A stretch of DNA of 64,000 nt, taken from assembly GCF_910592395.1 (NCBI RefSeq), contig NC_088319.1:4838001-4902000 (forward strand), written 5' to 3'. Position numbers and translations under genes: made by a program. This stretch comes from Lineus longissimus. Taxonomy: Eukaryota; Nemertea; Pilidiophora; Heteronemertea; Lineidae. Below the pieces are notes generated by a model. It was not told where the DNA came from. It searched no databases and saw nothing but the letters and a program-made list of their open reading frames with translations. This document shows, piece by piece, positions 10,937 to 63,543 of the stretch. How positions within the stretch are numbered: position 1 is the first letter of the stretch; every line of letters begins with the position of its first letter.

Positions 10937-13900
10937 CTCTAATCTCCCACTTACCTGTCCCATTTCCAAACCCTATCGCAAGTGACTAAGTCCGAATATT
11001 GCTAATTTTGGTTGGGGCAGAGCTCAATTTATGGAACAGCCTGGAGTAGTGACATGACAATGGACACTGTAAGGCTTTATGACAATCTTGCCTAGTCACG
11101 TAGTCGTTTACGTGTACTGCGGCTGGGCGACCGGGGCAATTAGGGTCACGGTTTCGTAACAGCTCAAGATCACTGTGGCGATTCGTTCACCATTTAACAC
11201 ACTGTATTTACACAATGGGAGCTACTACAACCGATCAATTGCCCAATGGAATAAGGGTGATTATAGAAGAGTCCTGGCTATTCTGCAGTTAAGCAGTGAA
11301 GTGGTCTAGGAACACCCACAAGGAGTCTTTAAACTGTGATCGGGCCTGATTGTTGATTTCATCACCTGTAGTTAAAAAGAGTGGCCTCGTCTTTGACATG
11401 GAAGGGTAAAGTCACTAGATTGGAACTGGGACGAAAGAACAGGGTGATCTACTGCCTGATAATGGGCATTAAAGAAAAAATTGAACAGAAGATTAACATT
11501 CTGATAAGGTTTTATTCATCATGAAAGTCAACATCAGCGTCATCAGGGTCAAACTCAAGCTCATCATTAACCTCTTCAAGTTCCCCATCTGCTGGATGCG
11601 GGATCACTGGGTCGTCATTCCCGTCCGGAAGAAGTCCACTTAGTCTCCACCCACTGACTATCACTTGGAATGCCACTCTTTCCCAGGCGAGACTGATCAT
11701 ACGTACTACTTCCTGGCGGGAAATCTGATCACAGTGTCCATCATCTTCGGTATGTCCAATCTTCCAGGCTTTCCACACCAATCTGAGATGACATTTAAAA
11801 CTGCGATTTACAGTTAAGTCCAAAGGTTGCAAAATTGAAGTGCATCGTCCAGGAATGAACGAATCCTGTCCATTTTGCCGCGGAATTTCCTCCGTAAACA
11901 GATGATGTCTATGGGCAGGGTAGCGATCCAAGATGAGGAGAAAGGTTGCTCCGGCAATAAATGGCACAACAATGGCTTGCAACCATTCGATCAATGACTG
12001 ATGTCTTGCCCAGCCATTCGGAGTACCTGTAACCTAAGATTAAAACGTTTCGTTTAGAAATAAAGAATAAATCGGTGCAATTCATGAAAATGTATGACTC
12101 ATTCTCCGATTGTATTGTTGCTCAGCCAGCTGATAGCTTTGGGAAATGGTTTCAAAGATCAACGTACTGCAATGATTCTAAAAATAGAACAGGATTCGTA
12201 AAAAGACCATTAAACACGAGGAGCAGGCAGATCATAGAGCTAGCTCCATTGGCAGTTGAAGATGATATGGTCATCTAACAGCTAATAAACCAGGATTAGT
12301 TAATGAAAAGGTTTACTTACTCGCACGTTCTGGGGAGCATGGGCTCGCAGTTCTGCAATAACTTCGCCTTCAGCATCCAAGCCCCTAAAGTTGACCTCAG
12401 CTGGTAGTTTTCGTCCATCGCTGGAGACGGCCAAGGTTACCGTGCATCCAATCTTCCCGTTCCCTCTTGAGGATCTGATGTCGATCGAATGTGATCCTGT
12501 TGTAGCCATTGTGGTTTTCGGCATCATGTCAAAGTTGACAAATGTTTCATCCATGTTGATGATCACATGGAAATTTCCATTTTGGATGATTTGAGACGTT
12601 TCCCTACGATAGACGGCCGCTATTTCCATAGCGTTGTCGGGGAGGGTTCGCGTGTCCTTATTCTTTCTTCGATGGCTTATTCTTTTTCTGAAAGGAAAAG
12701 GAGACCACTTTTAGCTTTGAAAAACGTAGCTTACTCCCCCATTACTGTCCATTTCTTGGTCATTGGGCCCATTATTCCATTATGGCAGAACAAAAGTTGT
12801 GAGAGAACCCAACCCAAGTGAGATACCAATTTACGAAATGGCTTCGTTGTTTTTACCTTTCTTTGAATCGGGTCAGCCAGTGATCTGACGCTCGGAAATC
12901 CTGATTGCGAGGCCTTTGCGCTCTCGTCTGCTGCCTTTGTTCCTCCGTCAGATTAGTCCACCATTGTCTGTATTCTCTGGCTGCTTGTGACTGGAGATCG
13001 ATCCCGGATACTGGAATTCCATGCTGGCGGCGTTGAATAAACCAGTCGTTGAGCTGATTTTCCATGTCTGCCCAAAACGCTGAAAAGGACAAACGGTAGG
13101 CCTATCAAGCAGACGGTGAAGGGATGAATCGGAGGGGGAGAAGAGTAGAGTATGCCTGAAATCTAAGAAGAGTCCCTGAATAATGTCGAACTATGGATAA
13201 AACCTCATTTCACAGTGAAAGCCTGAACTCACTGTCGCGCTTTTGCGCCGCGTTTTCACCGAGGCGCGGAAATCAATTGTTATTCATTAGGTGAACAAAG
13301 GATTCCCCGCCCGGCGGTGAAAATGCGGCGGAAAAACGCGTCAGTGAGTACAGGCCTTAATCTTATGGGCCTACTTCACTTAAAATTGTACATCTTTCGT
13401 AAATTCCTGACAAAAATGAGTTACCTTGTTCATCATTGCCATGCTGCCGAATCCTCCGCCGTCTCCTCTCAATTTGGGTGCACCTGTCGCGGCGTTCCGA
13501 CATCTCTTCATACTGGTCTAGCCATCTTGAGAATGTCCTTGGATGGATGCGGTGATGTACGGCAAAAGAACGACAAGACCGGGCATGCGCAATGCCCATC
13601 GCATGGTGCAGCCTAAAAGTATCAACGTAGTCCAAACGCTGATTCAAGCTGTAGCCATGAAGATGTCTCCTTTCTTGGCCTTCGTTAGCCGCACCATTAT
13701 TACCTCCGTCGTCACCACCATCACCATGCCCACCATTACCGCCACCATCACCGTCGTCACCGTTATCCATCGAATTCACGACCCAAAATCCAATGGCAAA
13801 GCAAAAAATCCAAAACAAACGCATCTCGTCGATTAACAAATCGAACCTCTGACAAAAACATCAATGAGTACACAAGAACTGTCCAACTTCTCTTATACTG

Positions 13901-18255: not shown

Positions 18256-19374
18256 TGCCGCAATAGTCACATCAATTTCTGAAACTGCGTTGCATTTACA
18301 AGGTGTTGACTGTTTGCTCCTGTTTTCCTGGGTTTCCAGTTACAGTACTGTAGGCATTCGGAAAACACTTTTGTGGGCGTTGGGACATTCCTGACAACTG
18401 TTTGCCTGGTGCTGTGACGTAGATTTCCTCATAGACTTGCCTGAAACCTGCTATCAGTGATGTCGGATCGGTGTACATTTAATAGGTATGTGAACCTGAT
18501 AGTGTGCAATTATGGTGAATTATATATTACAGCATATCAACATTATTATCCCACACTTGCTTGGTTGCATGGATGGGAAACTTTTTTTTCATATTCCTGA
18601 TTGAATTTTTGTGGCATGTTTCCAAGTAGTAGCAGGTAGCAAAGAACTCAAGGGGCACTTTATTTGCTTCAAAGCCAAGCACTAAGAATTCAAGTATGAA
18701 TCAACTCTCAGATAACCAAGGTTGTGTTGTATAATGGTCCCCAAGATGTGGGTAATTTTGATGAGATGAACATCGTTCTTGGGCTTGCCTATTCACTGTG
18801 ATCAAGATGTGATGAGAACGGTTGTCTTATTTCTCCCGCTATGATATTCTTTTCCAACAGCAGCATCTTGGAAAACTTCCTTAAAAATTTGTCTGTAATG
18901 TAGACTGCGGCAATTCAACCCTGAATACTGCATGCATTATTCCCCTGGTTTCGTTTCTGCAAGTATCATTTCCCTCTCTGCATCACTTAAATAATGATTT
19001 AGAAACAAATTTGTTATCTGTGATCTGACGAAAGTCAACTCTGCCTGCACCTGTATAATAACTGTTTGAGTTGTGTCTGTCATTACATCTGTCCCTCAGT
19101 CAAGAATATCCATCAACCAGTCCACAGGGGCAAATATGAAACCACTCTTTGACTGATACTTGGTGTGATGTTAGCTTAAGGTATTGCAAATACTGTGTTT
19201 TGCATCTAACCCATTTTGGTGTCTATGTAGCCATCTTGAAAATATGCAGCAATAATGACGATTTTTTTATGATGGGTATGTCATCACATATTACCCAGGT
19301 TTTATTCTTATCCCAACACATTCAGTAGGTATGTAGGTGTTCATTAGGATGTACATGTTGGTTTCTCTTTTTGG
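18256..19374. repeat. Upstream flank of G1, shared with G4
   Basis: Non-coding; aligns with 27760-28475 and then 30990-31365, the upstream flank of G4 on either side of its TTAA element. A 60-codon frame on the minus strand (18478-18296) is partly kept in other units but is broken by frameshifts in several, so I do not call it a gene. Confidence 0.65.
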
Positions 19375-20248: not shown

Positions 20249-21286
20249 TCAATTACCATGATAAAACAGCTTCAATCGTAACTGATTCATTTGATCAAAG
20301 AAAACAGCACGAAATTGTGACCCACTTACGCAATAGAGGATGAAGTTGATAGCATGATTGATATAAGTCATAGTTCTAGAGGAAAGGCGGAGAAGATAAC
20401 CCAACGCTGCTTGTTGCTCTGATTCACTCAGATCTGGGAAAAAGATGGGTTCAAATGCATAGAAAACTTGGTTGGGCAATGCAAGAATGACAAATACGAG
20501 ACTGACCACAACCAACATGACTGTTATCCCTGTAAGATCTTTTTGAGCTTGGGTATTCTGCATCTTCATTCTCTGTCTCATGTTTATTAGCAGCTTAAAC
20601 ATTATGAAGACATTGCATATTGTTATGACAATGAAAGGTATAGCTGCATACATGATGACACGTATAATACCCCATGCCGTGTAATAAAATGTAAAATAGG
20701 GTGCATCGACTCTGCCTGCATCACACCAGACTCCATCACCGGGGTAGATGCCAACTTTCATGAAGATGAGACAGTGGCTGTTCAGAGCAAATAGTGAAAT
20801 AAACAGCCCCGCCAGCACAAAGTATGTCCGCCTCTTTGAACAGATGAACTGTGCCTTTAACGGGAATGTAACACAAATGCAGCGCTCAAGTGTTAGTAGG
20901 AGGACGCTCCATGATGAGAACATCAGTGTGAACTCCATCAGAAAAATACTGACTTTACAAATAGCATCTGAGATTCTCCGTAATCTGATGTCATATGCCT
21001 GGAAGAGCACATGATCTAGACATCCTATATAAAGTACTAACAAGTCACTCAGGGAAAGGACTATCAGCAAGATACGTGTAGAAACATGCCCGATTCTTCC
21101 ACTGGAGACAACCATGATGGTTGCAATGTTGAAGATAGTTCCCATTGTTATGATGACTGGGCCAACGTATGCAACAAAAGCAAAAGCTACGAATGCCTCC
21201 CAGTGACCTCGGTCCATTAATGCCTCAAGGGAATAGTACTCACCCTGTTGTTTTTTTGTCACAGCGGATTGCAGTGTTTGTGTCAT
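20249..21286 (-). CDS. G2: class A (rhodopsin-like) GPCR, intact single exon
   Basis: 345 residues with seven predicted membrane helices. Landmarks are helix 1 with GTIFNIATIMVV, helix 2 with LSLSDLLVLY, helix 3 starting at the conserved Cys (AICKVSIFL) and ending LTLERCICV (ERC in place of DRY), loop 2 Cys in VWCDAGR for the disulfide, helix 5 MYAAIPFIVITICNVF, helix 6 VVSLVFVILALPNQVF, and helix 7 with NHAINFILYCVSGSQFR (NHAIN-type variant of NPxxY). The helix 7 ending resembles invertebrate peptide receptors of the FMRFamide-receptor kind, so the ligand is probably a peptide. That is family inference only. The start ATG lies 11 bases after a likely splice acceptor. Confidence 0.9.
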   Translation of the reverse strand: MTQTLQSAVTKKQQGEYYSLEALMDRGHWEAFVAFAFVAYVGPVIITMGTIFNIATIMVVSSGRIGHVSTRILLIVLSLSDLLVLYIGCLDHVLFQAYDIRLRRISDAICKVSIFLMEFTLMFSSWSVLLLTLERCICVTFPLKAQFICSKRRTYFVLAGLFISLFALNSHCLIFMKVGIYPGDGVWCDAGRVDAPYFTFYYTAWGIIRVIMYAAIPFIVITICNVFIMFKLLINMRQRMKMQNTQAQKDLTGITVMLVVVSLVFVILALPNQVFYAFEPIFFPDLSESEQQAALGYLLRLSSRTMTYINHAINFILYCVSGSQFRAVFFDQMNQLRLKLFYHGN

Positions 21287-22379
21287 AGTTGATAGTTCTG
21301 CAATCTAAACACACGTATTTTTAATGAAAGTTGTCCGTTTTGATAGTAAGTGTTGTTGTCCCTTTTTAATAGAAATGTAATAAATATAATCACCAGGCTC
21401 CAATTCGTTGCAGTAGTGAGGTTATGCTCCTGAGACAGGCAATTCAATGTCCAGAGAACTAATTGCTGTTTCATCGGCTGCCACCGAGACACGATAAACG
21501 GAGGCCTGAGGATTCATGTAATGGGTTGACAGCCAATGGGTGCCGAAATAGTCACAGCCATTTCTGAAACTGCTTTGCATTGACAAGGTGATGACCGTTT
21601 GCCCTATGTTTTGATATGTTTCCATTTACAGTACTGTTGGCATTCTGAAAACACTTTTGTGGGCGTTGGGACATTCCTGACAACTGTTTGCTTGGTGCTC
21701 TGATGTAGATTTCCTCATAGACTTGCCTGAAATTTGCCATCAGTGGTCTCGGATCGGTGTTCGTTTAATTGGTATATGAACCTGATCGCGTGCAATTATG
21801 ATGAATTATATATTACAGCATACGAAATATTAGCAACATCATCTCGTAATTGCTTTGTGGCATGGATCAGGATTGGACATTTTTTCATATTCCTGATTGA
21901 CTTTTTGTTGCATGTTTTCAAGTAGTAGCAGGCAGCAAAGAACTCAAAAGGCACTTTGTTTCCTTAAATGACAAGCACTCTGAATTCAAGTCTGAATGAA
22001 CCCTCAGATAACCAAGGTTGGTTTGTACACTGGTCCCTAAGATGTGTGTAACTTTCTATGAGATGAACATCTTTCTTGGACTTGCCTCTTCACTGTCATT
22101 AAAGTGTGATGAGAAATGTTGTCTAATCTCTCCCACAATGATATCCTCTTGCAATAGCAGAATCTTGGAAATCATCCTTAAAAATGTGTCTGCAATGTAG
22201 ACTGCGGCAATTCAACCCTGACTACTGCACGTATCATTCTCCTGGTTTTGTTTCTGCGTGACTGTATTATGTCCCATCTGTGCATCAGTTCATCACTAGA
22301 ATGATGATTGAGAAATAAATTTGTTAACTATTGTCTGACGAAGTCTTAGTATCTTGTATTCAATGATATTTTTATGGTA
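21287..22379. repeat. Upstream flank of G2, near-copy of the G5 flank
   Basis: Very close (about 95% by eye) to 35417-36480. It carries the likely 5'UTR splice acceptor beside the ATG. A minus-strand frame (21740-21422) matches an uninterrupted 105-codon frame in the G5 flank but is frameshifted here near 21605, arguing against a conserved protein. No other gene is seen. Confidence 0.65.
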
Positions 22380-23106: not shown

Positions 23107-24152
23107 TATGGCAAGCGGAGTGTCCAGTAATTAAAAAAACCTAGATTTATTCAAAAAACCTGGTTTTTTACCTAATAAACTAAGTTTATTTGGAAAAAAT
23201 ATAGGTTTTTTTAAAACAACCTTGTTTATTAGCTAATAAACCGAGTTTCTTTAATAAAACCAAGTTTTTTACCTAATAAACCTTGTTTCTATCCACAAAT
23301 GTTAAGTTGAACAAATAAACTTGGTTTTATTCCCTAAAATATAAGTTTTTCATCCAGTGGTAATAAACTTAATTTTATAGCAAAGAATCTTGGTTTATTA
23401 ACAATAACTGGACAAATGGCCAATAAACCTACCTTTTTACGTAAAAAACTTGGTTTTATACAAAACAACTTAGTTTTTTGCAATAAAACCTGGTTTTATT
23501 GTAAAAATGCAGGTTGTTTTGAATAACTGGACAAACGGCGTGCAAAAACCTACTTTCTATCGAGAAACTTGTATTTTCTACCTCGCCCGTGTACACAAAT
23601 CTGCTATCGGGACGAGGATGGGCAACCTCGGCACCACGTGGTACTAATGCTGCACTGCACTGCACTCTGTAAACTAGTTAGTGAGGCCCTAACTTCATCC
23701 CAGATCACTCAATGTAGGTAGGATCGAGGTTTAAAAATGTAAGTTTTCTAATAAACCAGGTTTTTAAAAAAAACTAGGTTTATTAGTAATAAACTTAGTT
23801 TTTTTAAATAAACTAGGTTGTTTTGGTAATAAACCTTGTTTTATTGAATAAATGGACATTTCTGTACAGAAACTTACATTTTATGCAATTATGTGGTAAA
23901 AAACCAAGTTTTTTAGGTAATAAACCAGGTTTTTTAGCATAAAATGTTAGTTTCTGTTAAAAAACCTACTTTATGAGGAAAGAAAGTAAAAAACTTGGTT
24001 TTATTAAAGAAACTCGGTTTATTAGCTAATAAACAAGGTTGTTTTAAAAAAACCTATATTTTTTCCAAATAAACTTAGTTTATTAGGTAAAAAACCAGGT
24101 TTTTTTGAATAAATCTAGGTTTATTTAATAACTGGACACTCCGCTTGCCATA
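23107..24152. mobile_element. Foldback element built of phased mini-palindromes, TATGGC ends
   Basis: The element is 1046 bases long. It begins TATGGCAAGCGGAGTGTCCA and ends with the exact inverse, flanked by TACATC (23101-23106 and 24153-24158). The empty site is at 38856-38861. About 170 bases at each end are near-identical inverted arms. The arms consist of A/T-rich units with a core such as CCTGG, CTAAG, CCTTG, CCGAG or CCAAG set between AAA and TTT, spaced alternately about 19 and 21 bases. The same motif continues, diverged, towards the middle. A central unique part (about 23560-23720) is not built this way. There is no coding frame. Six-base duplications are uncommon among DNA transposons. 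Confidence 0.88.
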
Positions 24153-26448: not shown

Positions 26449-27486
26449 TCAATTACCATGATGGAACAGCTTCAATCGTAACTGCTTCATTTGATCAAAG
26501 AAAACGGCCCGAAATTGTGACCCACTTACGCAATAGAGGATGAAGTTGATAGCATGATTGGTATAAGTCATAGTTCTAGAGGAATAGCGGAGAAGAGTTC
26601 CCAATGCTGCCTGTTGCTCTGATTCACTCAGATCTGGGAAAAAAATGGGTTCAATTGCATAGAAAACTTGGTTGGGCAGTGCAAGAATGACAAACACGAG
26701 ACTGACCACAACCAACATGACTGTTATCCCTGTTAGATCTTTTTGAGCTTGGGTATTCTGCATCTTCATTCTCTGTCTCATGTTTATGAGCAGCTTAAAC
26801 ATTATGAAGACATTGCATATTGTTATGACAATGAAAGGTATAGCTGCATACATGATGACACGTATAATACCCCATGCCGTGTAATAAAATGTAAAATAAG
26901 GTGCATCCATTCGGCCTGCATCACACCAGACTTCTTCACCAGGGTAGATGTCAACTTTCATGAAGATGAGACAGTGACTGTTCAGAGCAAAGAGTGAAAT
27001 AAACAGCCCCACCAGGACAAAGTATGTCCGCCTCTTTGAACAGATGAACTGTGCCTTTAACGGGAATGTGACACAAATGCAGCGCTCAAGTGTTAGCAGG
27101 AGGACGCTCCATGATGAGAACATCAGTGTGAACTCCATCAGAAAAATACTGACTTTACACATAGCATCTGAGATTCTCCGTAATCTGATGTCATAGGACT
27201 GGGAGAGCACCGTATCGAGACATCCTACATAAAGTACTAACAAGTCACTCAGGGAAAGGACTATCAGCAAGATACGTGTAGAAACGTGCCCGATTCTTCC
27301 ACTGGAGACAACCATGACGGTTGCAATGTTGAAGATAGTTCCCATTGCGATGATGACTGGGCCAGCGTATGCAACAAAAGCAAAAGCTACGAATGCCTCC
27401 CAGTGACCTCGGTCCATTAACACCTCAAGGGAATAGTACTCACCCTGTTGTTTTTTTGTCACAACGGATTGCAGTGTTTGTGTCAT
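26449..27486 (-). CDS. G4: class A GPCR, intact single exon
   Basis: 345 residues with all landmarks of the array family: helix 2 LSLSDL, Cys before helix 3, LTLERCICV, loop 2 WCDAGR, helix 6 LALPNQVF, helix 7 NHAINFILYCVSGSQFR and tail FHHGN. Loop 1 reads GCLDTVLSQSYD and loop 2 DIYPGEEVWC, both differing from the sister genes, while the membrane cores are almost invariant. It is expected in the plasma membrane coupled to a G protein; the ligand is unknown, a peptide being most likely. The upstream neighbour on the same strand is the G4 flank holding the TTAA element. Confidence 0.9.
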   Translation of the reverse strand: MTQTLQSVVTKKQQGEYYSLEVLMDRGHWEAFVAFAFVAYAGPVIIAMGTIFNIATVMVVSSGRIGHVSTRILLIVLSLSDLLVLYVGCLDTVLSQSYDIRLRRISDAMCKVSIFLMEFTLMFSSWSVLLLTLERCICVTFPLKAQFICSKRRTYFVLVGLFISLFALNSHCLIFMKVDIYPGEEVWCDAGRMDAPYFTFYYTAWGIIRVIMYAAIPFIVITICNVFIMFKLLINMRQRMKMQNTQAQKDLTGITVMLVVVSLVFVILALPNQVFYAIEPIFFPDLSESEQQAALGTLLRYSSRTMTYTNHAINFILYCVSGSQFRAVFFDQMKQLRLKLFHHGN

Positions 27487-28475
27487 AGTTGATAGTTCTG
27501 CAATCTAAACACACGTGTCTTGAGTGAAAGTTGTTCGTTTTGATAGTAAGTGCCGTTGTCCCTTTTTAATAGATAGGTAATAAATGTAATCACCAGGCCA
27601 CAAATTCGTTGCAGTAGTGAGGTCATGCTCCTGAGGCAGGCAATTCAATGTCAAGAGAACCTATTGCTCTTTGATCGACTGCCACCGAGACACGATAAAC
27701 GGAGGCCTGAGGATTCATGTAATGGATTGACAGCCATGAATGGGTGCCGAAATAGTCACAGCCATATCTGAAACTGCGTTGCATTTACAAGGTGTTGATC
27801 GTTTACTCCTGTTTTGATATGATTTCAGCTACAGTTGTTTTTGGCATTCTGAAAACACTTTTGTGGGCGTTGGGAGATTCCTGACAACTGATTGCCTGCA
27901 GTGATAAAGAGTTCCTGATAGACTTGCCTTAAACCTGCCATCAGTGATGTCGGATCAGTGTACATTTAATCGGTATGTGAACCTGATATTGTGCAATTAT
28001 GGTGAATTATATGTTACAGCATATCAACATAATCCCACACTAGCTTGGTTGCATGGATGGGAAACTCTTTTTCATATTCCTGATTGATGTTTTGTGGCAA
28101 GTTTTCAAGTACATGTAGTTGCAGGCAGCAAAGAACTCAAAGGGCACTTTATTTGCTTCAAAGCCAAGCACTCAGAATTCAAGCATGAATCAACCCTCAG
28201 ATAACCAAGGTTGATTTGTACAATGGTCCCCACGATGTGGATAATGTTGATGAGATGAACATCGTTCGAGGGCTTGCCTCTTCACAGTGATTAAGATATG
28301 ATGAGAACTGTTGTCTTATTTCTCCCGCGATGATATCCTCTTCCAACAGCAGAATCTCGGAAAACATCCTTAAAAATTTGTCTGTAATGCAGACTGCGGC
28401 AATTCAACCCTGAATACTGCATGCATTATTCCCCTGGTTTCGTTTCTGAAAGTATTATTTCCCTCTGTGCATCAC
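27487..28475. repeat. Upstream flank of G4
   Basis: Paralogous to 18256-19010 and 21287-22320, non-coding. It ends at the TTAA target of the element beginning at 28480 and resumes at 30990. Confidence 0.65.
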
Positions 28476-28714
28476 TTAAAGGTCATATATCAAGGTTTGA
28501 AAACATGCTTGATACTCATGAAATATGTTGAGGGTTAAAAAAACAAGATCCCAGACATTAAAAAAATTCTAATAATAAAGTCATTATTTAGTTATTTCAA
28601 TTTTCAATTTGAAACTATTTGAATTTCCCACCACACACAACTTTAGATTAGTTCCACATGTGGCCGCTAGGGATTTTTTGATGACGTAGGTCAGGTCAGT
28701 CAGAACAAAGCAAG

Positions 28715-29761
28715 ATGGCTTCCGCATACAGTTCAGAGAGTGAGAGCAGTGAATTTGAGGATGTTTTGGTCGATACAGAAGGATATTTAAACGTTGAGCC
28801 ATACATGTTCGAGCCATTGATATCACTAGATCATAATGAGAGTGATCATTCGGACGAAAGTGATGAGGAAGTGGAGGATGAACGCCCTGAACGTGCAGGC
28901 AACAGAAAATGGCAAGTTTTGTTTACATTCTCACTCTGTTCTCTATGCACACAGCACTACATCATGACATGCATCCACTACTACTATACACAATTGGACT
29001 TTATCTGATGCTCTGGCACTTCTTGGATGGCTTTGTATTGGTTCAATGGTTGTATGTATTTGAACAGTCTCTGAAGGACATTTGCCATCTGCCATGTCAT
29101 GGACTCGGCCTCATCATCACTGAGACTGAGGGAAGCCAAGGAGGGCAACTGGCAACTGGTCTAGTGTTAATCATCATTTTTTGTAAATATGTAAACGTTT
29201 ATCACTTCAGGTGTGACTGTGGAAACTGCACAGCTCAAATCACTGGAACAGAGTCGATGTGCTGCAGTGACTATTCCCCAGTTCTGGCCAAGAAGGAAAG
29301 TTATGAGCCAGATGGAGTTGCCTGCATAACTCTGCATCCCGGATTCGCAAGCAACTGCCTTGACCGATATGTCCTGGAAAGTGCCATGTATGAATTTATC
29401 TAAGATCAAGGGCCAATAGGAAATGATCAGCCAATGCACAAGTAAGTTGAAATAAGTAAAATAACAGAAACTTGTACATGTACACTTCCTATTTATTTAC
29501 AAAACAGAAACAACTGCCTTCAGCACAAAGGATTCATGACCATACTACATTGTATGCATTATGTTTCATCTGAACTCAAATTTTCTCTCAAACTGTCTTT
29601 TCAGGTTACGGAGATACCTTGCATACCGCAGATTTGTGCGCTGGTGCTGGCAACGTTTGGGCAAAAAGCAAAGACTTCCTCTTCCAGTCTGTGCTCGTGA
29701 CAAGATTCGCTCTACCTGGCCCTCAGAGGAGTACACTGGCTTACGTTATCCAAAGAGTTGA
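28715..29761 (+). pseudogene. P2X7-ballast-like zinc-binding protein gene, one premature stop
   Basis: Exons 28715-28911, 29211-29441 and 29605-29761. Intron 1 is GC-AG (donor TG/GCAAGT), intron 2 is GT-AG (CAA/GTAAGT), and phases 2 and 2 join correctly. Residues 1-60 are Ser/Glu/Asp-rich. The join forms RKWCDCGNC, then MCCSDYS, CITLHPGFASNCL, RRYLAYRRFVRWCW and finally PSEEYTGLRYPKS. The Cys/His set and the closing YTGxxYP match the zinc-binding ballast domain at the C-terminus of vertebrate P2X7 and of many invertebrate stand-alone proteins. No channel part is present. In exon 2 a TAA (29401-29403) interrupts YEFI-DQGPIGNDQPMHK, most simply a Gln codon CAA changed to TAA. Without it the product would be 194 residues. 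Function is unknown. Confidence 0.8.
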
Positions 29762-30093
29762 GCGTCCGATTAAATCGAGTCTTCCGGCTATCCACGACCT
29801 CAAGTTTGGTTTGACGTTTCGTGTATTTCGTACAGACTGGCTTGGGTGTAGACTTGATGCGATCTTCTCTATTGGCCAATGCAGTGCTGTACGAGGGCAT
29901 TTTCTCTCGAAGTCTCAATACCTCATTCAGTAGAAGTTGGATGTATTCTGAAAAGGAACGAATATTTTAATTTTTTTTTAACAATAAATATTTTGTATTT
30001 ATAGGATGTCCTGTTTGTTTTTGGTGACACAAGATCATCTCCACAGAATACCTCTGGAAATGGAAATGGTGTTCACAGTCAAGTGGAACCTCT

Positions 30094-30238
30094 CTAAAGG
30101 GACCATCTCAAAATTGACTGATGCCAAAATAGAAGAACAGTGTTAGTCTCTCTGTGAACACTGAGCACCTAGAAAACTCCCCCCAGACAAACACTGTTCC
30201 TCTTTTTTTGCATCAGTAAATTTTGAGATGGTCCCTAA
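30094..30238. repeat. Foldback insert inside the TTAA element
   Basis: CTAAAGGGACCATCTCAAAA... (30094-30144) pairs with its inverse at 30189-30238 (...TTTTGAGATGGTCCCT), with a loop of about 45 bases. Such a 50-base-arm hairpin in the 3' part of the element is either a nested MITE or a structured RNA end. Confidence 0.65.
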
Positions 30239-30989
30239 GGACACCCATGGGACTGACAAGTGCTCTCCTTAATAGAGTACACTCCCACCGCAGTGGTATG
30301 TCCCGCCCCTGGTTTCATATACCGTGCCAACCACTGCTAGGCGAGAGTCTTTATCAGCGGCTAGGAAGACGACTGCAACAACACTACTTTGGCACTCTGC
30401 CAAGCAATCGGATGTTGTCACCCTTTCTATATATGGCCATTTTCAAGGAGCATCCTCAACCTACATGTATGATATAGAAGTACTTTTTTGAAAAGGTTCC
30501 TACCATAAGTCACTGGTACTTTCACTTCCCTTGCCACAGGTTCACCCGTTTGCACTTCCGAATCCACAGCTTCCTCCTCTCTCGTTCAACTGGCTTTGGA
30601 AATTCATGAAAATGGGTCCCATCCGTCATTCGATTGTTCTTTGTGCTAGCCTTGACACAATTCGGAGCCACACAATACACCATAGTGAATGAAACACATT
30701 ACTTCCAGGTGTGCATAATTAATTAAGGCCCTCCTGCTTTTATGATTGCATGACATGTACAGATGACCTGATCTACATCACAACTTTTGCTGAACCCGCC
30801 GCCTGGCTCTAACAAGCCAGTTGCTAGCCTGATCAGGTAATCAAGTTGTCAAACACATAATTGGCTATATCTTCAAAATGGATGGAGCTAATTGCATTTG
30901 GTTTTCTGTATTGTATAAAGTGTAAGGTACACTTTTGAAATCGTCTTACAGCAGAAAATGGCAAAAAAACCTTGATATATGACCTTTAA

Positions 30990-32207
30990 ATAATGATTTA
31001 GAAACAAATTTGTTATCTGTGATCTGACGAAAGTCAACTCTGCCTGCACCTGTAGAATAACTGTTTGAGTTGTGTCTGTCATTACATCTGTCCCTCAGTC
31101 AAGAAGATCCAACAACCAGTTCACAGGGGCGAATATGAAACCACTATTCGACTGATACTTGGTGTGATGTTTGGTTAAGGTATTGCAAATACTGTGTTTT
31201 GCAACCTAACCCATTTTGGTGTCTAGGTAGCCATCTTGAAAATATGCAGCAATAATGACGAATTTTTTATGATGGGTATGTCATCACATATTACCCAGGT
31301 TTTATTGTTATACCCAACACATTCAGTAGGTATGTAGGTGTTCATTAGGTATGTACATGTAGGTTTCCCTTTTTGGCTCACCGTAGGGGAGTCTTTACAA
31401 AACCGCAGAGTCCGTCGTCCTTCGTCGTCTGTATCCTGTTTCAGTGGCATGTTTCGTAACCGCTAGAGTATGAACTTTAAACTCTGTATACAGAACCCTC
31501 CAGGTCAGGTGACCTCTGCACTGAAGTTCGTTTCGATCTGAGTCTTGACTTGGCCACCAGGGGGCCAACAATGAAACATAAAAAGTGTGATATCTCTCTT
31601 ATAAGTGACTCTTTTTCGATAACATTTTCATGGTTCTTTCTCCTAGCAAGTATACATCACATATCAGATGTGGTTTTGGTTTGATCTGATTTTCAAGGTT
31701 GCAGAGGTCAAATGGCGTAAACAGGTCGTTCGAGTGTAACTATGGTTCGTTTCTTTACCGCTTAAACTATGAACTTGAAATTTGGTACACATGACTCCCT
31801 ACTTGTCGACATCTATACATTCAATGATAACTTGCTGATTGTGATGATTACAACTAATTTAAATTGCGTTAAACTTGACAAGTTGTTGTAATTTCCTTCA
31901 TATGATTTTGAAATACAGAATTAATAAATTTTGACGTTATGTAATGCATTTTGTGTAACATAATTTTAAGTCATGGAGACGATTTAACATCAGGAGAAAT
32001 ATGTAACATTATCAGAAGCGGTGTTTTAACACATAGAATATCGTCACCATCATCATCATCGACATCATCAATCAGAGTTGATTTCAAAACTCAGAGGTCT
32101 TCATTTCATGAATAAATGAACTATTTGTATGTTAACTATTGATATGCATGTGAATAGTGTGTGGATGTGCGAATGATAATAAACAACTTGTGCTGTTGAA
32201 ATTCACC
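30990..32207. repeat. Upstream flank of G4 (rest) and M module downstream of G5
   Basis: 30990-31365 continues the G4 flank (compare 18997-19370). 31366-32207 is the GGCTCACCGTAGGGG-type M module, and preserves the empty site of the dimer seen at 1012-3155. No gene is seen. Confidence 0.7.
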
Positions 32208-34378: not shown

Positions 34379-35416
34379 TCAATAACCATGATAAAACAGC
34401 TTCAATCGTAACTGCTTCATTTGATCAAAGAAAACAGCCCGAAATTGTGACCCACTTACGCAATAGAGGATGAAGTTGATAGCATGATTGCTATAAGTCA
34501 TAGTTCGAGAGGAAAGGCGGAGAAGATAACCCAACGCTGCTTGTTGCTCTGATTCACTCAGATCTGGGAAAAAAATAGGTTCAAATGCATAGAAAACTTG
34601 ATTGGGCAGTGCAAGAATGACAAACACGAGACTAACCACAACCAACATAACTGTTATCCCTGTGAGATCTTTCTGATCTTGGGTTTTCTGCATCTTCATT
34701 CTCCGTCTCATGTTTATTAACAGCTTAAACATTATGAAGACATTACAGATTGTTATGACAATGAAAGGTATAGCTGCATACATAATGACACGTATAATAA
34801 CCCAGGCTGTGTAATAAAATGTAAAATAAGGTGTATCCATGCGGCCTGCATCACACCAGACTCCTTCACCAGGGTAGATGTCAACTTTCATGAAGATGAG
34901 ACAGTGGCTGTTCAGAGCAAAGAGTGAAATCAACAGCCCCGCCAGGACAAAGTATGTCCGCCTCTTTGAACAGATGAACTGTGCCTTTAACGGGAATGTG
35001 ACACAAATGCAGCGCTCAAGTGTTAGTAGGAGGACGCTCCATGATGAGACCATCAGTGTGAACTCCATCAGAAAAATATTGACTTTACACATAGCATCTG
35101 AGATTCTCCGTAATCTGATGTCATAGGCCTGTGAGAGCACCTGATCGAGACATCCTACATAAAGTACTAACAAGTCACTCAGGGAAAGGACTATCAGCAA
35201 GATACGCGTAGAAACGTGCCCGATTCTTCCACTGGAGACAACCATGATGGTTGCATTGTTGAAGATAGTTCCCATTGCGATGATGACTGGGCCAACGTAT
35301 GCAACAAAAGCAAAAGCTACGAATGCCTCCCAGTGACCTCGGTCCATTAATGCCTCAAGGGAATAGTACTCACCCTGTTGTTTTTTTGTCACAACGGATT
35401 GCAGTGTTTGTGTCAT
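34379..35416 (-). CDS. G5: class A GPCR, intact single exon
   Basis: 345 residues; same architecture as G2. Differences from its sisters lie mainly in loops: GCLDQVLSQAYD in loop 1, DIYPGEGVWCDAGRMDTPY in loop 2, KTQDQKDLTG in intracellular loop 3, and YHGY at the tail. Helix 1 has GTIFNNATI, an Asn for Ile next to the conserved Asn. Helix 3 ends LTLERCICV and helix 7 carries NHAINFILYCVSGSQFR. It is open from ATG to stop and likely functional. Its upstream flank is nearly identical to that of G2, marking G5 and G2 as products of one block duplication. Confidence 0.9.
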   Translation of the reverse strand: MTQTLQSVVTKKQQGEYYSLEALMDRGHWEAFVAFAFVAYVGPVIIAMGTIFNNATIMVVSSGRIGHVSTRILLIVLSLSDLLVLYVGCLDQVLSQAYDIRLRRISDAMCKVNIFLMEFTLMVSSWSVLLLTLERCICVTFPLKAQFICSKRRTYFVLAGLLISLFALNSHCLIFMKVDIYPGEGVWCDAGRMDTPYFTFYYTAWVIIRVIMYAAIPFIVITICNVFIMFKLLINMRRRMKMQKTQDQKDLTGITVMLVVVSLVFVILALPNQVFYAFEPIFFPDLSESEQQAALGYLLRLSSRTMTYSNHAINFILYCVSGSQFRAVFFDQMKQLRLKLFYHGY

Positions 35417-36480
35417 AGTTGATAGTTCTGTAATCTAAACACACGTAGTTTTAATGAAAGTTGTCCGTTTTGATAGTAAGTGCCGTTGTCCCTTTATAAT
35501 AGAAATGTAATAAATATCGTTGCAGTAGTGAGATCATGCTCCTAGAGCAAACAATTCAATTTCCAGAGAACTAACTGCTGTTTCATCGACTGCCACCGAG
35601 ACACGATAAACGGAGGCCTGAGGATTCATGTAATGGGTTGACAGCCAATGGGTGCCGAAATAGTCACAGCCATTTCTGAAACAGCGTTGCATTGACAAGG
35701 TGTTGACCGTTTGCTCCTGTTTTGAAATGTTTCCATTTACAGTACTGTTGGCATTCTGAAAACACTTTTGTGGGCGTTGGGACATTCCTGACAACTGTTT
35801 GCCTGGTGCTCTGATGTAGATTTCCTCATAGACTTGCCTGAAATTTGCCATCAGTGGTCTCGGATCGGTGTTCGTTTAATTGGTATATGAACCTGATAGC
35901 GTGCAATTATGATGAATTATATATTACAGCATACGAACTATTAGCAACATCATCTCGCAATTGCTTTGTGGCATGGATCAGGATGGGACATTTTTTCATA
36001 TTCCTGATTGACTTTTTGTTGCATGTTTTCAAGTAGTAGCAGGCAGCAAAGAACTCAAAGGCACTTTGTTTCCTTCAATGACAAGCACTCTGAATTCAAG
36101 TCTGAATAAACCCTCAGATAACCAAGGTTGGTTTGTACACTGGTCCCTAAGATGTGTGTAACTTTCTATGAGATGAACATCTTTCTTGGACTTGCCTCTT
36201 CACTGTCATTAAAGTGTGATGAGAAATGTTGTCTAATCTCTCCCACAATGATATCCTTTTGCAATAGCAGAATCTTGGAAATCATCCTTACAAATTTGTC
36301 TGCAATATAGACTGCGGCAATTCAACCCTGACCACTGCACGTATTATTCTCCTGGTTTTGTTTCTGCGTGACTGTATTATGTCCCATCTGTGCATCAGTT
36401 CATCACTAAAATGATGATTGAGAAATAAATTTGTTAACTATTGTCTGACGAAGTCTTACTGACTTGTATTCAATGATATT
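35417..36480. repeat. Upstream flank of G5
   Basis: Near-identical to 21287-22380. A 105-codon minus-strand frame (35851-35534) with six to seven Cys/His is open here but shifted in the G2 copy and cut in others. It could be a decayed upstream exon, but I do not annotate it as a gene. Confidence 0.6.
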
Positions 36481-36890: not shown

Positions 36891-38761
36891 CCTGTTTCAT
36901 AAAGCTTAATGGAGTTCCTTTAGGCCTAAAGGCACGTTAACGACGTTCCTTAGGACCTAGCCGTTTCATAAAGCTTCCATTAACTATCTAGGTTAATGGT
37001 GGCTTTAACGAGTGTTTCAGGTAGTGCCATTAACCTTCCTTTAGTTAACAGAGTTCCTTTAACTCTGAAGGAGGTTCGGGGCTCCCTCAAGCTTCCTTTA
37101 CGAGTTTTTTCTGCCTTCGGACGTCGAGCAGAGTTGACGTGCCATCATGCTGCGCTTAATACGAGAGCGTGAGAGACGCGCTATTCGGCGGGAGAGGATA
37201 TTCCGTGATCGATTTGACCCGATTGATTCGATGCGGGAGGATTTATTTATGAAACGATACAGATTTCCAAAAAACATTTGCATCGATTTTTGTAGAGAGC
37301 TTTCGGCGGAGCTTCAGCATCCGACAGAGAGGAACCACGCCCTTACTGTGTCAATGCAAGTACGCACTGCGTTGCGTTTTTTTGCCAGTGGCAATAACCA
37401 ATCGAGTGTTTGGGACAATCATCACATTAGTGTGTCAAGCGCTTCGCGATGCATAAATTCAGTTTCCTCTGCTTTGGCGGCTCGTATCGATCAACACGTG
37501 TACTTCCCGAACAATCTAAAGCATGTGAAGGCGAAGTTTTTCGAAAAAACGGAATTTCCCGGCGTGATTGAGTCGATTGATGGGACCCACGTCCGCATCA
37601 GCAGACCAAGCATCAACGAAAATATATACGTGAATCGAAAGGGGTTTCACAGCATCAATGCGATGCTTGTGTGTGACTGGGACATGATAATAAATAACTG
37701 TGTAGCCCGTTTTCCTGGTGGAACACACGACTCCTACGTCCTTCACAGTTCAGCACTAGGCCGAGAATTCGAGAGAAATCCACCAAATAGTTGGCTGTTG
37801 GGAGATTCTGGGTATCCTTCCAAGAGATGGATTATGACACCTCTTGGTAATGCTCAAACACGACAGGAAAAACATTATCAACGGAGGCAATGTAAAGCTA
37901 GGAGCATCATTGAGCGTTGCAATGTATTGTTGAAGGAACGCTTCAGATGCCTCAGGAAGGAGCTACATTACACTCCTGCAAAAGCATCTATGGTAATTCA
38001 GTCTTACTGTGCTCTTCACAATGTTTCCGTCAGATACAAGTTGCCAGTCTTACATGATCCGGATAGTACAGACGATGATTCCTCTGATAGTGATGCTGGG
38101 GATGACGAGTTTCCTCCAAGGTACAATGACATGAACGGAAACCAAATAAGAGAGGAATTGGTTGCAACATTATAGACTGATTCATGGGGATAAGGGACCA
38201 TCTCAAAGTAAAAGTAAAGCCAAAAATATTCGTTTATTTATCAATGACCCCCCCCCCCCTTTAAAAGTTTGGTTGTCATTTGCCAAAATGCTTGTCAAAC
38301 ACGCTGCACGAAGGGCCTATATCCAACATAATTACATCACATAACGAACCGGTGTAGAAGTTTAAAATGTCCTGGGATAAAATGTCCGGGAACAAAGGAT
38401 TCTATTATGCGCTGAGCTATTGACGGTCATTGCCTCTATAGAACCATATGCCATAATCTGTCAGAATACAATAGGCCCGGACACTTTTTCTAGGGGGGAC
38501 ACTTTTTACTTTTACACCGGCAGAGTGCCTCTGAGCAGATATTACCGCATTTCAATTGAATTCCGACTAAGCGTTCGAGTAAATTTTAATGGGCGCTTGG
38601 TGGGTGAACCGTAGATTCACCTGCTAAAGAAGGGCAGGCTAAAGGTACCTTCAAGCCGGTTTGTGAAACGCTCTGATTTTGTTCCTTTAAATTTTAAATG
38701 ACTCCTTCCTTTATGGTTCCTTAAAGGAACTCCTTTAAAAAGTTTTATGGAACAGGCCCCT
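36891..38761 (+). mobile_element. PIF/Harbinger transposon with intact transposase
   Basis: The ends read (AGGG)ACCTGTTTCATAAAGCTT on the left and, inverted, AGGGGCCTGTTCCATAAAACTT on the right. The outside sequence 'gccaccaggga' / 'gggagttaaaac' joins into the uninterrupted 'ccaccagggagttaaaac' near 23000 in the G3 unit. A 3-4 base GGG(A) duplication is therefore shared by both flanks, in line with the 3-base duplications of Harbinger. Subterminal repeats of 'gttcctttaa' / 'ttaaaggaac' lie at both ends. Only the transposase gene is present; the second, Myb-like protein of autonomous Harbingers is not seen. Confidence 0.88.
37147..38175 (+). CDS. Harbinger (HARBI1-like) DDE transposase
   Basis: 342 residues from ATG 37147 (context gccatcATGC) to TAG, about the family's usual length (roughly 350). 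A basic N-terminus (RERERRAIRRER) is followed by a helical domain. The DDE nuclease core shows ESIDGTHVRI (first D), NRKGFHSINAMLVCD, WLLGDSGYP (second D) and RSIIERCNVLLKERF (the catalytic E). It ends in an acidic tail (DPDSTDDDSSDSDAGDDE). No stops or frameshifts are seen. It would cut and join the element ends. Because matching terminal repeats flank it, this is a transposon gene, not domesticated HARBI1. An upstream ATG is not in frame, so the start is fairly safe. Confidence 0.92.
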   Translation: MLRLIRERERRAIRRERIFRDRFDPIDSMREDLFMKRYRFPKNICIDFCRELSAELQHPTERNHALTVSMQVRTALRFFASGNNQSSVWDNHHISVSSASRCINSVSSALAARIDQHVYFPNNLKHVKAKFFEKTEFPGVIESIDGTHVRISRPSINENIYVNRKGFHSINAMLVCDWDMIINNCVARFPGGTHDSYVLHSSALGREFERNPPNSWLLGDSGYPSKRWIMTPLGNAQTRQEKHYQRRQCKARSIIERCNVLLKERFRCLRKELHYTPAKASMVIQSYCALHNVSVRYKLPVLHDPDSTDDDSSDSDAGDDEFPPRYNDMNGNQIREELVATL

Positions 38762-39472: not shown

Positions 39473-40507
39473 TTAATTACTGTGACAGAACAGCTTCAAT
39501 CGTAATTGTTTCATTTGATCAAAGAAAACGGCACGAAATTGTGACCCACTTACACAATAGAGGATGAAGTTGATAGCATGACTGCTATAAGTCATAGTTC
39601 TAGAGGAATAGCGGAGAAGAGTTCCCAATGCTGCCTGTTGCTCTGATTCGCTCAGATCTGGGAAATAGGTGGGTTGAATTGCAGAGAAAACTTGGTTTGG
39701 CAATGCAAGAATAACAAACACGAGACTGACCACAACCAACATGGCGGTTATCCCTGTAAGATCTTTTTGAGCTTTGGTATTCTGCATCTTCATTCTACGT
39801 CCCTTGTTTATTAGCAGCTTAAATATTATGAAGACATTACAGATTGTAATGACAATGAAAGGTATAGCTGCATACATGATTACACGTATAATACCCCAGG
39901 CTGTGTAATAAAATGTAAAATAAGGTGCATCCATTCGGCCTGCATCACACCAGACTCCTTCACCAGGGTAGATGCCAACCTTCATGAAGATGAGACAGTG
40001 ACTGTTCAGAGCAAAGAGTGAAATAAACAGCCCAGCCAGGACAAAGAATGTTCGCCTCTTGGAACAGATAAACTGTGCTTTTAACGGGAATGTGACACAA
40101 ATGCAGCGCTCAAGTGTTAGTAGGAGGACGCTCCATGATGAGAACATAAGTGTGAACTCCATGAGAAAAATACTGACTTTACACATAGCATCTGAAATTT
40201 CTCGTAATTTGGTGTCATAATGGTAGAGCACAAGATCTAGACATCCTATGTAAAGTACTGACAAGTCACTCAGGGATAGGACTATCAGCAAGATACGTGT
40301 AGAAACGTGCCCGATTCTTCCACTGGAGACAACCATGATGGTTGCAATGTTGAAGATAGTTCCCATTGCGATGATGACTGGGCCAACGTATGCAACAAAA
40401 GCAAAAGCTATGAATGCCTCCCAGTGACTTCGGTCCATTAATGTCTCAAGGGAATAGTACTCACCTTGGTGTTTGTTCGTCAAAACGGATTGCAGTGTTT
40501 GTGTCAT
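39473..40507 (-). CDS. G6: class A GPCR, intact single exon
   Basis: 344 residues, one shorter than G2/G4/G5 in loop 1 (CLDLVLYHYDTKLREISD). The third intracellular loop has INKGRRMKMQNTK, and the third extracellular loop IQPTYFPDLSE. Class A landmarks are complete: LSLSDL, Cys before helix 3, LTLERCICV, WCDAGR, LALPNQVF, SHAINFILYCVSGSQFR. It is the intact sister of pseudogene G3. It is the outermost copy; beyond its upstream flank (to about 41480) the repeated unit ends. Likely a peptide receptor by helix 7 resemblance, not proven. Confidence 0.9.
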   Translation of the reverse strand: MTQTLQSVLTNKHQGEYYSLETLMDRSHWEAFIAFAFVAYVGPVIIAMGTIFNIATIMVVSSGRIGHVSTRILLIVLSLSDLSVLYIGCLDLVLYHYDTKLREISDAMCKVSIFLMEFTLMFSSWSVLLLTLERCICVTFPLKAQFICSKRRTFFVLAGLFISLFALNSHCLIFMKVGIYPGEGVWCDAGRMDAPYFTFYYTAWGIIRVIMYAAIPFIVITICNVFIIFKLLINKGRRMKMQNTKAQKDLTGITAMLVVVSLVFVILALPNQVFSAIQPTYFPDLSESEQQAALGTLLRYSSRTMTYSSHAINFILYCVSGSQFRAVFFDQMKQLRLKLFCHSN

Positions 40508-41480
40508 AGTTGATAGGACTGCAATCTAAAGACGCGTACTTTGAGTGAAAGTTCTCCGTTTTGATAGTAAGTGCCGTTGTCCCTTTTTAATAGAAAGGTA
40601 ATAAATATAATCACCAGGCATCAAATTCGTTGCAGTAGTGAGGTCATGCTCCTGAGGCAGGTAATTCAATGTCCAGAGAACTAATTGCTGTTTCTTCGAC
40701 TGCCACCGAGACACGATAAACGGAGGCCTGAGGATTCATGTACCGGGTTGACAGCCAGCCAATGGGTGCCGAAATAGTCACAGCCATTTCTGAAACTGCG
40801 TTGCATTTACAAGGTGTTGACCGTTTACTCCTGTTTTGATGGGTTTCCAGTTACAGCACTGTTGGCATTCTGAAAACACTTTTGTGGGCGTTGGGAGATT
40901 CCTGACAACTGTTTCCTGGTGCTGTGATGTGGACTTCCTGATAGACTTTCCGGAAACCAGCCATCAGTCGTCTCGGATGAGTGTTCATTTAATTGGTATA
41001 CGAACCTGATAGTGTGTAATTATGGGGAATTATATATTACAGCATACGAACTATTAGCAACATCATCTCACAGTTGCTTTGTGGCGTGATTCCTGATTGA
41101 ATTTTTTGTTGTATGTTTTCAAGTAGTAGGAGGCAGCAAAGAACTCAGATGGCTCTTTGTTTGCTTCAAATCCAAACACTCTGAATTCAAGTCTGAATCA
41201 ACCCTCTGATAACCAATATTGGTTTGTACACTGGACCCTAAGATGGGGTAATTTTTTATGAGATGAACATCGTTCTTGGGTTGTAATTAAGATGTGATGA
41301 GAATTGTTGTCTTATTTCTCCTGTGGTGATATCCTCTTGCAATAGCAGAATCAGGGAAATCATCCTTAAATATTTGTTTGATTAGTCGACAAACTGTCGC
41401 AATTTAACCCTGAGTACTGCATAATCCCAAGTACTGCGTCTGTGTGTATTATGTCCCTCTGTGTATCACTCAAAATTCGA
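40508..41480. repeat. Upstream flank of G6, last of the array
   Basis: Similar to 25812-26340 and 27487-28475 but more diverged after 40920. Similarity to the array fades near 41480, which I take as the array boundary. It is non-coding. Confidence 0.55.
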
Positions 41481-53236: not shown

Positions 53237-53360
53237 TATCTATTTCCTATTTTCTAACGCCAGGCGACGCATTATCATGAAAATGACGACCATCAAATTA
53301 AACGAACGGTGTAAACCTTTATGAGCTCGTTTTGATAAAGCGATTTAATTGGCAGCTACC
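53237..53360. other. Spacer between pogo element and satellite
   Basis: About 120 bases of non-repeated sequence; nothing recognised. Confidence 0.5.
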
Positions 53361-54099
53361 TGAAATGTGGTGCCGATTCTCAAAGGTGATATCATACCAA
53401 CATATCACTGATTAACCTGCAATGTGGTGCCGATTCTCAAAGGTGATATCATACCAACATATCATTGATTAACCTAAAATGTGGTGCCGATTCTCAAAGG
53501 TGATATCATCCCAACATATCATTGATTAACCTGAAATGTGGTGCCGATTCTCAAAGGTGATATCATCCCAACATATCATTGATTAACCTGAAATGTGGTG
53601 CTGATTCTCAAAGGTGATATCATCCCAACATATCATTGATTAACCTGAAATGGAATGCTGATTCTCAAAGGTGATATGATCCCAACATATCATTGATCAA
53701 CCTGAAATGTGGTGCCGATTCTCAAAGGTGATATCATACCAACATATCACTGATTAACCTGCAATGTGGTGCCGATTCTCAAAGGTGATATCATCCCAAC
53801 ATATCATTGATTAACCTGAAATGTGGTGCCGATTCTCAAAGGTGATATCATCCCAACATATCATTGATTAACCTGAAATGTGGTGCCGATTCTCAAAGGT
53901 GATATCATCCCAACATATCATTGATTAACCTGAAATGTGGTGCTGATTCTCAAAGGTGATATCATCCCAACATATCATTGATTAACCTGAAATGGAATGC
54001 TGATTCTCAAAGGTGATATGATCCCAACATATCATTGATCAACCTGAAATGTGGTGCCGATTCTCAAAGGTGATATCATCCCAACATATCATTGATCAA
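53361..54099. repeat. 57-base satellite, about 13 copies, 342-base higher-order unit
   Basis: The monomer reads GAAATGTGGTGCCGATTCTC, AAAGGTGATATCATCCCAAC, ATATCATTGATTAACCT (57 bases). Marker variants recur every sixth monomer: 'tggaatgctg' at 53651 and 53993, and 'catcactgattaacctgc' in monomers 1 and 7. The array has thus grown by copying six-monomer blocks of 342 bases. Confidence 0.93.
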
Positions 54100-62033: not shown

Positions 62034-63543
62034 GATCAAAAATTCCCTGTATGCCGAGGCAAGCACTTCTACCTACTGTAGCAATTAAAAAGATACCGAA
62101 CCAATACCATATGCCGATATAAGCACTGTTATATATATATGCTGTACCATAATTACATTTTTCGAAGCAATCCCACATGCTGATGCAAGCAATCCTACTT
62201 GCTGTTCCATAATTACAAAGATACCTCAGGAATCCCACATGCTGATGCAAGCAATCCTTCTTGCTGTACCATGATTACAAAGATACCTCAAGAATCCTAC
62301 ATGCTGATGCAAGCAATCCTTCTTGCGGTACAATAATTACAAAGATACCTCAGGAATCCCACATGCTGATGCAAGCAATCCTTCTTGCTGTACCATAATT
62401 ACAAAGATACCTCAGGAATCCCACATGCTGATGCAAGCAATCCTACTTGCTGTTCCATAATTACAAAGATACCTCAGGAATCCCACATGCTGATGCAATC
62501 AATCCTACTTGCTGCACCATAATTACAAAGATACCTCAGGAATCCCACATGCTGATGCAAGCAATCCTACTTGCTGTACCATAATTACAAAGATACATCA
62601 GGAATCCCACATGCTGATGCAAGCAATCCTTCTTGCTGTACCATAATTACAAAGATACCTCAGGAATCCCACATACTGATGCAAGCAATCCTTCTTGCTG
62701 TACCATAATTACAAAGATACCTCAGGAATCCCACATGCTGATGCAAGCAATCCTTCTTGCTGTACCATAATTACAAAGATACCTCAGGAATCCCACATGA
62801 TGATGCAAGCAATCCTACTTGCTGTACCATAATTGCAAAGATACCTCAGGAATCCTACATGCTGATGCAAGCAATCCTTCTTGCTGTACCATAATTACAA
62901 AGATACCTCAGGAATCCCACATGCTGATGCAAGCAATCCTTCTTGCTGTTCCCTAATTACAAAATACCTCAGGAATCCCACATGCTGATGCAAGCAATCC
63001 TTCTTGCTGTACCATAATTACAAAGATACCTCAGGAATCCCACATGCTGATGCAAGCAATCCTTCTTGCTGTACCATAATTACAAAGATACCTCAGGAAT
63101 CCCACATGCTGATGCAAGCAATCCTTCTTGCTGTACCATAATTACAAAGATACCTCAGGAATCCCACATGCTGATGCAAGCAATCCTTCTTGCTGTACCA
63201 TAATTACAAAGATACCTCAGGAATCCCACATGCTGATGCAAGCAATCCTTCTTGCTGTTCCCTAATTACAAAATACCTCAGGAATCCCACATGCTGATGC
63301 AAGCAATCTTTCTTGCTGTACCATAATTACAAAGATACCTCAGGAATCCCACATGCTGATGCAAGCAATCCTTCTTGCTATACCATAATTACAAAGATAC
63401 CTCAGGAATCCCACATGCTGATGCAAGCAATCCTTCTTGCTGTTCCCTAATTACAAAATACCTCAGGAATCCCACATGCTGATGCAAGCAATCCTTCTTG
63501 CTTTACCATAATTACAAAGATACCTCAGGAATCCCACATGCTG
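62034..63543. repeat. 62-base satellite, about 22 good and 2 decayed copies
   Basis: The monomer reads GATACCTCAGGAATCCCACA, TGCTGATGCAAGCAATCCTT, CTTGCTGTACCATAATTACA, AA. Copies are almost identical from 62160 to 63543 and strongly decayed at the left edge (62034-62150), as expected when exchange is frequent in the middle and rare at the border. A sub-variant ('gttccctaattacaaaatac', one base shorter) occurs near 62946, 63256 and 63441, showing block copying. Confidence 0.93.

Follow-up and report, generated by a model that had tools for sequence, protein, structure and literature searches.

Why should a gene for a P2X7-like ballast domain lie between the inverted ends of a mobile element in a nemertean worm? 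The locus is part of a stretch of 64,000 nucleotides from Lineus longissimus (NC_088319.1, positions 4,838,001 to 4,902,000; hereafter, the window), and all coordinates are counted from the first letter of that stretch. The element spans 28480-30985 (2,506 bp; Table 1) and is, very probably, an internally deleted, non-autonomous Kolobok of the Kol0 type, with KolX as its own accessory gene. In Kol0-type Kolobok elements, KolX is encoded as the second protein; Kojima and Bao (2022; PMC9587614) described it as clearly similar to the P2X7 ballast and as having the ballast fold.

Ends, target site and empty site

The first-pass annotation had described a TTAA-flanked element with 19-base inverted ends and an empty site, and this description was borne out. 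The ends are exact reverse complements of one another (19/19), and TTAA adjoins both of them. When the flanks are joined on one TTAA, they align over 591 bp to a paralogous unit with 93.9% identity and one gap, and the alignment of the element-bearing copy with this empty site breaks exactly at TTAA. Two more units (near 22.3 and 36.4 kb) span the site without the element, with 82.1% and 81.5% identity, respectively, and 15 gap positions each; both extend only some 46 bp beyond the junction, and the TTAA is altered in each. A further unit (41208-41422) aligns with the left flank alone, ending before the site, and is thus uninformative.

In the window, a unit carrying a long single-frame open reading frame (ORF), 350-351 amino acids in length in four units, is tandemly repeated in diverged copies, and the element lies inside one of these. 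The element was most likely inserted after the units had separated. Precise excision, or loss, from the other units would look alike, and is less likely because it needs more events. Insertion would have occurred at TTAA in a single unit of a tandemly repeated G-protein-coupled receptor gene, and would have been driven by Kolobok transposase supplied by another copy. The four similar ORFs were located at 20252-21304, 26452-27504, 34382-35434 and 39476-40525 (-); a 7tm_1 match (E 1.4e-21) was obtained for that at 20252-21304, the sole one of the four scanned.

Could the structure be an accident or artefact, with a host pseudogene caught between TTAA-bounded inverted repeats? Among the 27,557 TTAA-bounded pairs in the window lying 100-15,000 bases apart, two have 19/19 ends, namely the element's own and the pair 23211/24044, which is situated within AT-rich palindromic repeats and lends the accident some plausibility. 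However, none of 200 first-order Markov surrogates reaches 19/19 (the top value being 16/19), and we regard chance as already refuted by the empty site, with its break exactly at TTAA; we give this explanation practically no credence. A search of the window with a 16-base end, allowing up to three mismatches, found 2 matches versus 0.47 expected, a count that was reached in 7 of 100 shuffles and is unremarkable when taken alone; the two matches are, however, exact and TTAA-bounded. The case for the element rests on the exact ends, the TTAA and the empty site, and not on the end count. The AT-rich repeats (23131-24125), which hold several TTAA-bounded inverted pairs, are possibly a foldback or a small TTAA element.

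No second copy of the element was found within the window. The KolX piece fitted the search pattern in 5 stretches of viral contigs and 16 of prokaryote contigs, with none confirmed in either set, and had no relative among phages; the left end had no relative among viral contigs. None of these is evidence of absence, because the collections are not animal genomes.

The KolX-like gene and its ballast domain

The gene on the plus strand has three predicted exons sharing one frame, with a GC-AG first and a GT-AG second intron, the splice sites being placed by frame and motif. All four motifs previously pointed out as marks of a spliced gene (WCDCGNC, CITLHPGF, RWCW and YTGLRYP) are present in these exons, and the proposed P2X7-ballast-like identity was upheld by the Pfam family P2RX7_C (PF20478), which matches residues 49-190 of the spliced frame, scored with X at the stop codon, with E 1.9e-12 (47.9 bits versus a cut-off of 23.5). 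The exon 3 ORF, with nothing joined to it, scores 26.7 bits against the same cut-off; the exon 2 ORF alone gives no P2RX7_C match. In addition, two distinct P2X7 sequences from PDB match by sequence (E 6e-4 and 7.2e-4).

Nine cysteines are encoded in the spliced frame. Seven of them (67, 69, 72; 83, 84, 104; 172) follow the ZCD cluster order, and five (codons 67, 69, 72, 104 and 172) are aligned with cysteines of P2X7. We read the seven as the probable ZCD set, which for the pair 83-84 is an inferred placement. The first cluster is without its leading P, and the last reads LPVCA versus PSC(C/S). Judged by its P2RX7_C match and cysteine order, the predicted protein would be a KolX of the Kol0 type with the ballast fold.

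In comparison with the P2X7 tail (PF20478; PMC7016195), the cysteine clusters have the same order, and the LRRYLAYRRF/RW core and the IR...P...YTG end are shared. In contrast to that tail, the protein predicted here stands without the channel part, has a longer CC-to-C spacing and a single cysteine in the last cluster, and shows other departures from the printed consensus (PMC7016195). Furthermore, one intron immediately precedes WCDC and the other separates MHK from LRRY, whereas the P2X7 domain is encoded in one exon (13) (PMC7016195).

Two features were absent from the first-pass annotation, namely an in-frame TAA at 29401 and a minus-strand THAP half-domain, to which we return below. The TAA (codon 130 of the spliced frame, in exon 2) lies ahead of the last zinc cysteine and of the whole of exon 3, neither of which would be reached, and the copy is therefore probably a dead pseudogene that makes no full ballast domain.

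The gene had also been termed the cargo of the element. That a ballast gene is carried by a TTAA transposon stands; that the element captured it from the host, as true cargo and not as its own gene, we consider very unlikely. Capture would fit the introns and the possible poly(A) signal, which are host-gene-like, as well as the stand-alone ballast genes of many animals, some of them in conserved linkage with two markers (PMC7016195). However, the ballast-fold KolX belongs to Kol0-type elements as their second protein (PMC9587614), which makes capture unnecessary.

A possible transposase remnant and the probable assignment to Kolobok

All 41 ORFs of at least 40 amino acids overlapping 28400-31100 were compared singly with Pfam, and the only families passing their own cut-off were P2RX7_C and THAP. 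The latter is represented by the first half of its profile, on the minus strand, and we infer that this half-domain is a remnant of a transposase DNA-binding exon. On the simplest reading, a deletion within the element spared KolX together with the first THAP exon. A number of matches below the cut-offs were taken as chance: DUF7611, IFT57, DUF642, SRP54, Orthopox_F6, ERbeta_N (E 0.0025), DUF6533 (E 0.015) and the RNaseH-like domain of ZSWIM1-3 (E 0.14). The last of these names an RNase-H-like fold and may be a trace of the transposase.

Kolobok elements are described as having a TTAA target and 5'-RR/YY-3' ends, the ends distinguishing them from piggyBac (PMC9587614), and their transposases usually comprise THAP, DDE and H2CH parts (PMC6004289). 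Here, the 4-bp TTAA duplication is present and the termini are AG...CT, of the 5'-RR/YY-3' form, and the first three bases of the end fit the AGGRR of Xenopus T2/Kolobok. The Kol0 label is given by KolX, and was set by published descriptions of Kol0 and KolX.

The element had earlier been called Kolobok/piggyBac-like, and of the two names Kolobok is favoured by the AG...CT ends and the THAP half. A piggyBac-type element would be conceivable, as some piggyBac families encode a KolX-like protein. However, those proteins are described as without most of the seven cysteines, and piggyBac ends as other than 5'-RR/YY-3' (PMC9587614); in the present element seven cysteines are in order, five of them aligned with P2X7. 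The THAP half-domain also counts against piggyBac, and a piggyBac transposase domain was found in none of the 41 ORFs. We consider a piggyBac origin highly improbable.

Several points weigh against a Kol0-type Kolobok with a ballast-domain KolX. P elements and host genes have THAP as well, and half a THAP domain is therefore not proof of Kolobok. The lack of a second copy in the window also counts here. None of the 41 ORFs has a DDE catalytic domain above the Pfam cut-off, and with it the DDD/E transposase with C/DxxH known from Kolobok was not found; the element is therefore classed as non-autonomous and derived from Kolobok, and not as a complete Kolobok. Bases 4-5 of the end, TC, do not follow the AGGRR pattern of the T2 subgroup in Xenopus. 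As for the ballast domain, no single stretch of the PDB P2X7 match is under 0.001 alone (the best being 0.0012), and the two cysteines at 83-84 fail to align with the CC of P2X7, while their distance to the next cysteine, at 19 residues, exceeds that in the consensus LCCRx3GxCIT given by Rump et al. (2020; PMC7016195).

With published Kol0 Kolobok elements (PMC9587614) the present one shares the TTAA target, the 5'-RR/YY-3' ends and a ballast-domain accessory protein; it differs in being 2.5 kb in size, without a DDE transposase and with a nonsense codon in KolX. Xenopus XKol/T2 elements likewise have TTAA, ends starting with AG (AGG in several of them) and THAP in the transposase, and the ten tabulated as full-length are 6.8-13.9 kb in size (PMC6004289). 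The word 'purinoceptor' does not occur in that paper, in which KolX was not searched for.

On the Kol0 Kolobok reading, the plus-strand gene would be the accessory KolX of the element, its domain recognised in the sequence and its ownership drawn from the literature. The half THAP would be the leftover of the transposase gene and, judging by this copy, the two genes of the parent element would have faced each other. At a guess, KolX would serve the element as a zinc-stabilised helper of the transposase and not as part of a channel.

Table 1. Features of the TTAA element and of the paralogous unit bearing the empty site (window coordinates)
Feature	Coordinates	Strand	Remarks
Paralogous unit with empty site	18711-19300	+	single TTAA at 18987-18990
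TTAA target-site duplication, left	28476-28479		single TTAA in empty paralogous site
Left terminal inverted repeat, AGGTCATATATCAAGGTTT	28480-28498	+	19/19 versus right end
KolX-like exon 1 (predicted), acidic serine-rich N-terminus	28715-28911	+	followed by GC-AG intron; GC donor placed by WCDC frame
KolX-like exon 2 (predicted): WCDCGNC, CC and CIT parts of ballast zinc site	29211-29441	+	in-frame TAA at 29401-29403
KolX-like exon 3 (predicted): LRRYLAYRRFVRWCW ... LPVCARDKIR ... YTGLRYP	29605-29761	+	stop TGA at 29759
AATAAA, possible polyadenylation signal of KolX-like gene	29983-29988	+	letter match only
139-bp foldback inside element	30098-30236		52-nt arms, 90% complementary
First half of THAP domain, profile positions 1-43 of 87	30525-30683	-	Pfam PF05485, E 5.1e-7, 30.8 bits versus cut-off 23.9
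Right terminal inverted repeat	30967-30985	-	inverted copy of left end
TTAA target-site duplication, right	30986-30989		

The foldback inside the element is possibly a nested small element. Elsewhere in the window, a 345-residue ORF at 37138-38172 (+) matches DDE_Tnp_4 (E 2.8e-33) and is, we assume, a Harbinger-like transposase; a DDE_1 transposase fragment (E 1.9e-14) was detected at 11515-12033 (-). Minisatellites are located at 53358-54096 (57-bp unit, 13 copies) and 62169-63543 (62-bp unit, 22.2 copies), and scans of the window for tRNA genes and Rfam families yielded nothing.

Ballast genes between host and transposon

The proposal made from the window alone, that a Kolobok/piggyBac-like element has spread the ballast domain and perhaps brought it to P2X receptors, holds in substance and is not new, being already in print: Kojima and Bao trace the origin of P2X7 to KolX fused to a P2X4-like gene, and state that nobody had earlier recognised the ballast-like proteins known from various animals as parts of Kolobok families (PMC9587614). 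The ballast domain across animals was described by Rump et al. (PMC7016195), in the main text of which neither 'transpos' nor 'mobile' occurs, and we found no literature pairing 'P2X purinoceptor 7-like' with 'transpos'. One Ixodes protein reported there joins THAP (printed TAHP) with a ballast domain (PMC7016195), and may be a trace of Kolobok. In zebrafish, nanor was proposed as a domesticated KolX; by its description it shares with the gene reported here a ballast domain that stands alone behind a short N-terminal region, and differs from it in being a host gene (PMC9587614).

It should be noted that ballast genes number fewer than 10 per species, and that their linkage with two markers is conserved across invertebrates (PMC7016195). 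Low copy number and conserved linkage indicate that some ballast genes are stable host genes, and therefore speak against a purely mobile history. One may also imagine elements with KolX only, lacking a transposase and helped in trans, which could have spread ballast genes through the genome and so provided raw material for stand-alone genes. We consider this unlikely, and one copy, its KolX broken, speaks neither for nor against such a family.

Whatever the case, the element, complete with its empty site, adds an independent example to the published association of Kolobok with the P2X7 ballast. It favours considering stand-alone ballast genes of invertebrates as possible transposon genes before taking them for relatives of the receptor.
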